Shown here piece after piece: positions 22,120 through 24,321 of a stretch of DNA of 46,204 nucleotides (position 1 is its first letter; every line of letters begins with the position of its first letter). The position numbers and the translations under genes were made by a program. The notes under the pieces were generated by a model. That model had not been told where the DNA came from and did not search any database. It saw nothing but the letters and a program-made list of their open reading frames with translations. Source of the DNA: Selenomonadaceae bacterium (GTDB lineage Bacteria; Bacillota; Negativicutes; Selenomonadales; Selenomonadaceae). The stretch spans positions 1 through 46,204 of the forward strand of contig JAFXNB010000146.1 of NCBI GenBank assembly GCA_017529935.1, read 5' to 3'.

Positions 22120-22344
22120 ATGGCAACGATTTCATTTGAGTTCAGCGACAAAGCCTACGATGTCTTGGAAGAGCTGGCAAGTCGCAAGGACATCGGCGTT
22201 TCGGAATTTGCAAGGCGTGCACTGCTTGAGAAGATGGAAGACGAAGAAGACTTGAAGGCAGTCGCAGAGGCTCTGCGCGAAGACGAAGGCGACCCGACAA
22301 CTTACAAATTCGAGGAGTTGAAGGACAAATGGCTGACGGCGTAA
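22120..22344 (+). CDS. Ribbon-helix-helix antitoxin (RelB-like)
   Basis: The 74-residue protein begins ATISFEFSDKAYDVLEELASRKDIGVSEF, a typical ribbon-helix-helix DNA-binding start (strand, then two helices). The acidic C-terminus (DPTTYKFEELKDKW) would wrap the toxin. It is preceded by AAAGGAGGCG, and its stop overlaps the toxin start by 16 bases, so translation is coupled. Such antitoxins usually repress their own promoter with the toxin as co-repressor. Confidence 0.85.
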   Translation: MATISFEFSDKAYDVLEELASRKDIGVSEFARRALLEKMEDEEDLKAVAEALREDEGDPTTYKFEELKDKWLTA

Positions 22345-22610
22345 AAAAATATTCCGTTGAGTTCAAGCCGAGTGCACGCAAGAAAATGGACAAGCTCGAT
22401 GCTCCTGTTCGTCGCAGAATTACCCAATGGATAGCAAAAAATCTTGAAGGTTGCGAAAATCCGCGCGCTAAAGGTAGATTACTTGAGGGCGAATGGGAAG
22501 GATACTGGCGTTATCGCGTCGGCGACTATCGGCTCATCGCTGACATTCAAGACGACAAAATTATCATTATGATTATCAACGTCGACAAACGCAACGACAT
22601 CTACAAATAA
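22329..22610 (+). CDS. RelE/ParE-family toxin
   Basis: The 93-residue basic protein has the RelE/ParE beta-barrel core: VEFKPSARKKMDKL, NPRAKGRLLEG and WRYRVGDYRLIADI, ending in INVDKRNDIY. RelE members cleave mRNA on the ribosome; ParE members poison gyrase. The Arg-rich YRVGDYRLI and final Arg-x-x-x-Tyr fit RelE-type mRNA interferases better, but this is inference. It overlaps the antitoxin by 16 bases and is followed by its own terminator, giving a compact two-gene cassette. Confidence 0.85.
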   Translation: MADGVKKYSVEFKPSARKKMDKLDAPVRRRITQWIAKNLEGCENPRAKGRLLEGEWEGYWRYRVGDYRLIADIQDDKIIIMIINVDKRNDIYK

Positions 22611-22785: not shown

Positions 22786-23463
22786 ATGAATTATCGGCGG
22801 ATATTGGTAATCGGCGACATGCACGGAAAATTCTCTCGGCTGTTGTCGCTTTTTCATAAGATAGACTTTGACGAGCAGAAAGATTTTTTAATTTTGCTGG
22901 GCGACTACATAGACCGCGGCGAGGAAAATATGCGCTGTTTTCGTTGGGCAATGGAAATGAGCGAAAAGCCCAACGTCATAGCCCTGCGCGGCAACCACGA
23001 ACAGATGATGCTGTACTATTACGCGCTGGGCGGCACTGAAGGTTACATCTGGCTCCCCAACGGCGGCAACAAGACCAAAGCCGAGTTCGAGGAGTGGCGC
23101 AAAAAAGACGACACGGCTTTTCAACGCGCCCTTGAATTCATAAACGACCGCCCGTATTATCACCAAATGACAATCAACGGCGAGGAATATATTTTTGTGC
23201 ACGCGGGCTTGAATCCCAAAAAGAAGCTGGAGGATCAGGAGGAAGAAGATTTGCTTTGGATTCGCGAGAAATTTTATAACGGCTACAGGGGCGACGCGCA
23301 CATCATTTGCGGACACACGCCCACGCCGTTCCTTAAGCGCGATTGGTATTATCCGATTCGTCTGCCGAATAAAATCACGCTCATGGACACCGGCTCTTTC
23401 ATGCGGGACGGCAAAATTTCTTGCATAGACATTTTAAGCGACCAAATTTGGCAAAGCGATTGA
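22786..23463 (+). CDS. Calcineurin-like Ser/Thr protein phosphatase (PrpA/PrpB-like)
   Basis: ATG 22786 (GGGAGGCG upstream) gives 225 residues. Metal-ligand motifs of the PPP family are complete: GDMHGKFS, LGDYIDRGE, LRGNHEQM, and later the His in VHAGL and CGHTPTP. This is the bacterial lambda-phosphatase/PrpA type, which dephosphorylates Ser/Thr or Tyr residues using Mn. It lies 15 bases upstream of the FtsZ-like gene on the same strand, so a common transcript is likely. No kinase is adjacent. The 140-bp stretch upstream shows no confident promoter. Confidence 0.9.
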   Translation: MNYRRILVIGDMHGKFSRLLSLFHKIDFDEQKDFLILLGDYIDRGEENMRCFRWAMEMSEKPNVIALRGNHEQMMLYYYALGGTEGYIWLPNGGNKTKAEFEEWRKKDDTAFQRALEFINDRPYYHQMTINGEEYIFVHAGLNPKKKLEDQEEEDLLWIREKFYNGYRGDAHIICGHTPTPFLKRDWYYPIRLPNKITLMDTGSFMRDGKISCIDILSDQIWQSD

Positions 23464-23478
23464 CGAGGAGAAAGTTTT

Positions 23479-24321
23479 ATGGACGTTAATATAAAAATCG
23501 TCGGACTTGGCGAGGGCGGCGCGCGGGCGATTAGCAAAATGATTGCGGCGGGCGTCGGCAAAAATAAATCCGTCGAGTACATTGCGATTGGCAACGACGA
23601 AAATATTTTGCTGACGAGCACGGCGCGGAAAAATATTTTCCTTAACCGCGACATGGCGGTGATTTACAAAAATATCTTCGACGCTCTCAACGGCGTAAAA
23701 ATTATTTTTATCGTCGGCGGTTTGGCGGGCAATGCGGCGCGAATTTCTATTCCGATTATCGTTTCCTTCGCGAAGACTTACGGCGCGGCGACCGTTGCTT
23801 TTATCTGCAAGCCGTCAGTTTTGGAAAATGCCACGCGCAAGATTAATGCCGATTACACGCTGAATTATCTGCGCGAAGTCGATACGCTGTTCGCCGTGCC
23901 CGCTGAAAAATTTTTTATGTTCTGCATAAATCGCCCGCAAATTTCGCTTGCCGAGCTTTTCGACGTTGCTGACGATATTTTTTGTCGTGGCGTGAAAAAT
24001 TTTCTGGAGATAATTTCAAAAGACGTTTCGTTGAGCAAGCGCGGCAATGCGGCGTTCGGCTACGGCGAAGGCGCGACTGCACTCGACGCGGTTAAAGTTG
24101 CCGCAAAGTTCCCGACGCTTGAGGAGGACGAAATTAAAACGGCGCAGAAAGTTTTGGTGCACTTGGCGAGCGGGACGCCCTTGCCGCTTAGTTCACTTAC
24201 CGCCGCGCATAAATTTATCCAAAATCAACTTCAACCGGAGACAGAATTTTTATCTCGGGAGGAAATCAACCCGCTGTTCGGCGAAAAAATTTTCGCAACG
24301 ATAATCTGCACGAGGAAATAA
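23479..24321 (+). CDS. Divergent FtsZ/tubulin-like protein lacking the GTP signature
   Basis: The 280-residue protein aligns along the whole FtsZ core. IKIVGLGEGGARAISKMI matches the T1 loop and helix 1. SVEYIAIGNDENILL matches EFIAINTD. KIIFIVGGLAGNAARISIPII stands where GGGTGTGAAP should be, and LREVDTLFAVPAEKFF and GRGV-like CRGVKNF follow. The C-terminal domain ends IFATIICTRK. The tubulin signature GGGTGTG is reduced to VGGLAGNA, and the T7 loop (SLSKRG) lacks the acidic catalytic residues, so GTP hydrolysis and FtsZ-type polymerisation are unlikely. There is no C-terminal peptide for FtsA/ZipA binding. It starts 15 bases after the phosphatase gene. Confidence 0.8.
   Translation: MDVNIKIVGLGEGGARAISKMIAAGVGKNKSVEYIAIGNDENILLTSTARKNIFLNRDMAVIYKNIFDALNGVKIIFIVGGLAGNAARISIPIIVSFAKTYGAATVAFICKPSVLENATRKINADYTLNYLREVDTLFAVPAEKFFMFCINRPQISLAELFDVADDIFCRGVKNFLEIISKDVSLSKRGNAAFGYGEGATALDAVKVAAKFPTLEEDEIKTAQKVLVHLASGTPLPLSSLTAAHKFIQNQLQPETEFLSREEINPLFGEKIFATIICTRK

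Follow-up and report, generated by a model that had tools for sequence, protein, structure and literature searches.

The window, by which we mean the whole stretch of 46,204 nucleotides that was analysed, comes from a Selenomonadaceae genome and carries an open reading frame whose product we designate pZ1, a working name valid in this text only. The frame is supported by matches to FtsZ families, by its predicted fold and by 28 named orthologous loci. It lies directly downstream of a phosphatase gene, and the spacing of 15 bases that a first-pass annotation of the DNA had given holds, as the phosphatase frame ends at 23463 and pZ1 starts at 23479. Many pZ1 orthologues have a similar Shine-Dalgarno-like sequence ahead of their start. 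The two genes are probably co-transcribed, so that pZ1 would be made together with the phosphatase.

22786..23463, + strand: PPP-type Ser/Thr phosphatase (metallophosphoesterase) gene, adjoining pZ1 upstream with a 15-nt gap
23465..23470, + strand: Shine-Dalgarno-like GAGGAG of pZ1, 8 nt before the ATG
23479..24321, + strand: pZ1 open reading frame, ATG start, 280 aa
24200..24461, + strand: tandem duplication, 131 bp, of the pZ1 3' end and the bases following it, copies 96% identical

The tandem duplication is missing in the sister genome L040. No Rfam match to an RNA element was found near the pZ1 gene, and a promoter and terminator scan at the gene gave nothing above chance. Just upstream of the phosphatase lies a gene for a ParE-type toxin (window 22329-22610; Pfam E 7.8e-16).

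FtsZ fold and lost catalytic parts

pZ1 matches the NCBIfam ftsZ model (TIGR00065) with an E value of 1.6e-29, at a score of 103.3 bits that falls below the equivalog cut-off of 295.2. Its Pfam FtsZ_C match is slightly above the cut-off and its Tubulin match slightly below (31.4 vs 33 bits); across the 29 members of the family, Pfam detects Tubulin in 28 and FtsZ_C in 24, with no other recurrent domain. A profile of the 29 relatives searched against the PDB matched FtsZ only (best E 3e-38). The AlphaFold2 model (mean pLDDT 91.9, pTM 0.90) has the GTPase domain, H7 and the C-terminal domain of FtsZ, and superposes on FtsZ over residues 1-280 (Foldseek, VIA-align), the best chain being 8h1o (Z 32.2, rmsd 2.4 over 274 residues). 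Sequence matches at E <= 0.001 and the fold-search matches listed were all FtsZ, which leaves the relation to CetZ, TubZ or PhuZ unaddressed. The first-pass annotation had claimed that the whole FtsZ core can be followed and had proposed structure prediction as a check: FtsZ families, profile search and predicted fold all agree with the claim, and the tubulin/FtsZ fold is present in the model. Like canonical FtsZ (TIGR00065), pZ1 possesses both globular domains and the same order of secondary structure elements. Unlike pZ1, canonical FtsZ has GGGTGTG, T3, T7, a linker and a tail.

To map the losses, we aligned pZ1 and the 28 other members with 93 canonical Quinella FtsZs. The kept and lost elements are as follows, those marked (a) being read from the alignment.

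23503..23529, + strand: T1 loop, residues 9-17, GLGEGGARA vs FtsZ GxGGGGxNA (a)
23590..23613, + strand: T2/H2, residues 38-45, GNDENILL vs FtsZ NTDxQALL (a)
23656..23661, + strand: junction A60/V61 of a 17-residue deletion removing T3 (a)
23716..23754, + strand: T4, residues 80-92, GGLAGNAARISIP vs FtsZ AGMGGGTGTGAAP (a)
23824..23838, + strand: H5 motif E116...R120 (SaFtsZ E139, R143), both invariant in the 29 members
24019..24024, + strand: junction K181/D182 of an 11-residue deletion removing T7 (VPGLVNLDFAD) (a)
24043..24318, + strand: C-terminal (GTPase-activating) domain, residues 189-280, kept, without linker or C-terminal peptide

In T1, one glycine is replaced by E or D in all 29 members, and the asparagine after GGGG has mostly become K or R. 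T4, which contains GGGTGTG in 93 of 93 aligned Quinella FtsZs, is GLxSxAA-like across the pZ1 family; relative to those FtsZs, GMGGGTGTGAAP has changed to GLAGNAARISIP in pZ1. The phosphate binders T4, N25, N44 and T3 are gone. The catalytic T7 loop NxDxxD (NLDFAD) is deleted in every member, and in the model H7 stops at residue 179, followed by a short turn to the next strand. The pZ1 of the window ends past the last strand, without a linker and without a C-terminal peptide such as the IDIPPWMRxR of FtsZ-A. A tail of 25-30 aa with a PLLKNFLGRFQ-like end occurs only in the deep-branching members L062, L064, L065 and L066, where it is conserved (FPLLKNFLGRFQ); it is possibly a remnant of the C-terminal peptide of FtsZ-B (IIPDFFNRR or LPDFLNNW).

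These results bear out most of what had been noticed in the sequence alone. The loss of GGGTGTG extends to all 28 other members, the missing T7 acidic residues proved to be part of a deletion of the entire loop, and the FtsZ tail is indeed absent. The first-pass annotation had further held that close homologues with an intact GTP site would expose a sequence error here; no such homologue was found, and the changes, being shared by all 28 other aligned members, are not a local sequence error. The identity of the protein and the loss of its catalytic parts stand, with GTP hydrolysis itself judged from sequence. We infer that pZ1 is unable to form a normal GTPase site with itself; what we say of its GTP binding, hydrolysis and polymerisation is likewise inferred.

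Distribution and selection

Scanning 84,980 species genomes gave 28 pZ1 loci, each in a MAG assigned to Selenomonadaceae or Selenomonadales. Ruminant gut is the origin wherever a source is stated, and three of the MAGs bear the name Quinella (1Q5, 1Q7, 2Q5); these three named bins, derived from physically enriched large cells, all contain pZ1. In Quinella, the genus of giant rumen Selenomonadaceae to which the window's own genome belongs, 32 of 66 genomes have an intact orthologue (45-93% identity). In an order-wide search the scores were 315-507 bits for these 32 and fell to 138 bits for the best remaining match, a canonical FtsZ; the 123 genomes belonging to other genera of the order yielded no pZ1. 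As nine pZ1-negative Quinella genomes are at least 90% complete, its absence from them is real. pZ1 is restricted to one Quinella subclade. Where the first-pass annotation had looked to the Negativicutes for its phylogenetic spread, the range is narrower, and a Negativicutes-wide spread is ruled out by the other-genus genomes and the gap between 315 and 138 bits.

All 28 named orthologous loci have open frames without internal stops, dN/dS is about 0.08-0.24 in pZ1 pairs with dS < 0.5, and 35 positions are invariant among the 29 members. pZ1 is kept by purifying selection. The damaged 3' surroundings of the gene in the window, with their 131-bp tandem copy of its end, could be taken for signs of a decaying pseudogene or an assembly artefact, a reading to which we give practically no credence: it is refuted by the open orthologous frames, by dN/dS far under 1 and by the invariant positions. 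A sequencing error is ruled out by the orthologous loci and the low dN/dS.

FtsZ paralogues and the origin of pZ1

The search for a canonical ftsZ elsewhere in the genome, suggested by the first-pass annotation, was positive for the window's own genome. FtsZ-A and a divergent FtsZ-C with mostly intact GTP motifs are present in all Quinella genomes with adequate data, and FtsZ-B occurs additionally in one subclade, to which all 32 pZ1 genomes belong. The members of this subclade that lack pZ1 (G005, G020, G048, G078) have a completeness of 60-73%, and the contig of G078 stops 37 nt past the phosphatase. Three further genomes (G013, G065, G073) have an FtsZ-B-like gene and no pZ1, and branch at the base of this subclade. 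The FtsZ-C gene of the window genome (G000:C27:2718-3917; L180) is split by an in-frame TAA and is whole in relatives; the split may be a genuine truncation or a fault of the assembly.

Trees joined pZ1, as a long branch, to Quinella FtsZ-A and FtsZ-B (support 100/99) and kept it separate from FtsZ-C and the FtsZ of other families; they could not tell whether FtsZ-A or FtsZ-B was its parent. A topology placing pZ1 just outside A+B was not rejected (p-AU 0.27). Joining it to FtsZ-C was borderline (p-AU 0.06), and FtsZ-C parentage is not favoured. pZ1 probably descended from Quinella's own FtsZ, the exact parent remaining undetermined. As to its position, the phosphatase gene of pZ1-negative Quinella (L187, L190, L191, L192) is followed directly by a Cof-type HAD gene, and the same HAD gene follows pZ1 in L062, L064, L065 and L066. 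The phosphatase is immediately upstream of pZ1 in L062, L065 and L066; in L064 the upstream frame is masked by an overlapping antisense ORF. The simplest reading is that pZ1 was gained at the phosphatase/HAD junction.

Quinella genomes contain other degenerate FtsZ copies. A second paralogue, pZ2, of about 270 aa, lies directly behind FtsZ-B in about 29 genomes (for example L154:4288-5112, that is G058:C7:12587-13411), with a spacing of 7-26 nt in most and 77 nt in G046; the count leaves out the window's own genome, where the FtsZ-B contig stops 153 nt past FtsZ-B. Its T1 and T4 are destroyed (ADEVWENIKAVAL), and Pfam detects FtsZ_C and no longer the GTPase half. pZ3, an N-terminal half-only FtsZ located before FtsZ-B, has the T4 sequence GLGGCDGTGA and no C-terminal domain (L137:1969-2607, that is G015:C47:16868-17506; also in G016, G041, G046 and G079, and broken in G051). 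Further degenerate or half-length copies lie beside canonical ftsZ at G050:C121:3552-4352 (L165), G075:C34:2285-3037 (L152) and G059:C56:45976-46653 (L135). G050 and G075, with degenerate copies of their own, are pZ1-negative. We read the extra copies as independent, reflecting repeated FtsZ decay and reuse in Quinella.

Conserved nucleotide face and possible role

The nucleotide face is the most conserved part of pZ1 across the 29 members. Invariant positions number 29 of 171 in the nucleotide-face half (residues 1-171) and 6 of 109 in the rest (Fisher p 0.005), and the halves also differ in entropy (p 0.0001). Where two subunits of S. aureus FtsZ meet, D46, Q48 and R143 on one side contact the T7-loop residues N208 and D213 of the neighbouring subunit (PMC8936486). 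Throughout the family D46 is kept as D40 and R143 as R120, and Q48 is conservatively replaced by N42; N44 has become G, likewise in 29 of 29. The H7 residues F161, A164 and D/N165 are kept, and on the guanine/ribose side F161, A164, E116 and R120 stay, whereas the phosphate binders are lost. At nine positions pZ1 differs from FtsZ by a new residue that is invariant or nearly so (E12, G38, E41, N42, N52, N56, D58, K144, F168). Judged from these alignments, the surface is remodelled under constraint, which is more than simple loss.

We propose, with a probability of roughly 0.42, that pZ1 is a GTP-independent end-capper or modulator of FtsZ-A/FtsZ-B filaments, a regulator more than a ring builder. 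This is inferred, without interaction or expression data. The first-pass annotation had likewise suggested a protein unable to hydrolyse GTP that could be a cap, scaffold or regulator of division; our results support that interpretation, its cap or regulator part as inference only. An FtsZ subunit joins via its top face to the T7-exposing end, and bottom-face mutants are toxic (PMC8936486); MciZ, SulA and MinC all act on that T7-exposing end (PMC11938149). pZ1 would be a non-hydrolysing mimic of an FtsZ subunit, with a top (nucleotide) face that, reworked for no bound triphosphate, may dock on the T7 face that FtsZ-A/FtsZ-B filaments present at their growing end. With no T7 face of its own, pZ1 would block the addition of a further subunit. 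Filaments would then be capped or shortened, and pZ1 may in this way tune how the Z-ring assembles or where it is placed in an exceptionally large cell. A conserved top face, T7-facing residues kept or nearly so and the deletion of its own T7 together make up what we infer to be the anatomy of an end-capper, and two canonical FtsZs co-occur with pZ1 in the same genomes. Against capping, the top face is much altered (N44 to G, T3 deleted, T1 G to E) and may have lost its fit to FtsZ; there is no complex model; and, the phosphatase aside, the gene neighbourhood of pZ1 shows no link to division genes, mreB/mreC being a few kb off in a few loci only.

Conservation of the top face could just as well point to a new ligand or partner. 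The reworked pocket might bind, for example, a nucleoside or signalling nucleotide, with the contact to FtsZ lost; the nine new residues at former FtsZ positions mark a changed function, and guanine- and ribose-side residues outlast the phosphate binders. We consider such an unrelated role unlikely, as the retained positions precisely include those facing the partner's T7 loop. It is similarly doubtful that pZ1 enters FtsZ-A/FtsZ-B filaments laterally or internally as a non-hydrolysing subunit that alters their stiffness or turnover, in the manner of chloroplast FtsZ1/FtsZ2 mixtures. Two canonical and several degenerate FtsZs per genome hint at a mixed ring and pZ1 retains the full FtsZ fold, but the loss of T7 and T3 rules out normal longitudinal contacts on both sides, and the C-terminal domain, the would-be second contact, is the less conserved half.

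In 27 of 32 pZ1 genomes the pZ1 gene immediately follows the phosphatase gene in the same orientation (the exceptions being G001, G012, G024, G059 and G081). This order would suit a SulA-like mode in which pZ1 binds monomeric FtsZ one-to-one under the control of the neighbouring phosphatase, using the same surfaces as capping. We regard this as quite improbable: sequestration requires high affinity (PMC11938149) and there are no affinity data for pZ1, and the phosphatase gene occurs in 64 of the 66 Quinella genomes, also where pZ1 is absent. Together, these three alternatives take up most of the confidence that we do not place in capping.

Under the capping proposal, pZ1 would resemble plant ARC3, the chloroplast Z-ring inhibitor, in being an FtsZ relative that limits FtsZ assembly without a filament function. 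The FtsZ-like domain of ARC3 is GTPase-defective, and ARC3 is regarded as a functional homologue of MinC. Its inhibition of FtsZ2 filaments is seen even in E. coli (PMC5471200). The two proteins differ in origin, and ARC3 has a C-terminal MORN region whereas pZ1 has no MORN and ends with the FtsZ_C domain. We infer analogy in mechanism, not homology in architecture. Quinella retains MinC in nearly all genomes, those with pZ1 included, which rules out pZ1 as an ARC3-like replacement for it. FtsZ-like 1 (Tubulin_2; Makarova and Koonin 2010) likewise belongs to the FtsZ superfamily and occurs beside canonical FtsZ, without T6-T7 elements (PMC2875224). Unlike it, pZ1 keeps S6, H7 and the FtsZ_C domain, matches PF00091/PF12327, with no Pfam match to Tubulin_2 among the 29 members, and has no vWA or kinase operon. 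MciZ, MinC and SulA share the proposed target, the T7/C-terminal association face of FtsZ, but are not FtsZ homologues. Laboratory FtsZs mutated in T7 or the interface, for example the S. aureus FtsZ T7 mutants 3wgk and 3wgl, are structural neighbours of the pZ1 model with a full fold and a crippled T7 face; those were engineered, whereas pZ1 is a natural deletion that has lost the GTP site too. As a kind, pZ1 is by its sequence a GTPase-dead FtsZ relative with precedents in ARC3 and FtsZ-like 1, yet by their defining criteria it cannot be assigned to canonical FtsZ, to ARC3 (no MORN) or to FtsZ-like 1 (no Tubulin_2, FtsZ_C present). Full-text literature searches found no description of pZ1 and no report of ftsZ in Quinella genomes, one paper mentioning both words being left aside.

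Most bacteria use a single FtsZ for division. In Quinella, a clade of uncultured rumen bacteria with very large cells, FtsZ has been multiplied, and several copies that are dead by sequence persist under selection. The cells are oval, measure up to 4 by 8 micrometres and exceed E. coli about 60-fold in volume; their division site is of Gram-positive type (PMC9585023). It is possible, if still rather doubtful, that this giant-cell lineage evolved a GTPase-dead FtsZ set (pZ1, pZ2, pZ3) beside two or three catalytic FtsZs, giving a multi-tubulin Z-ring with built-in caps or modulators, convergent with chloroplast FtsZ1/FtsZ2/ARC3. pZ1 is a natural system in which to test whether a filament protein has become its own regulator, and raises the question of how the division ring is controlled in a bacterium of such volume. 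Two SepF paralogues are found in nearly all of the 66 Quinella genomes, a doubling that is a possible counterpart of the doubled FtsZ.
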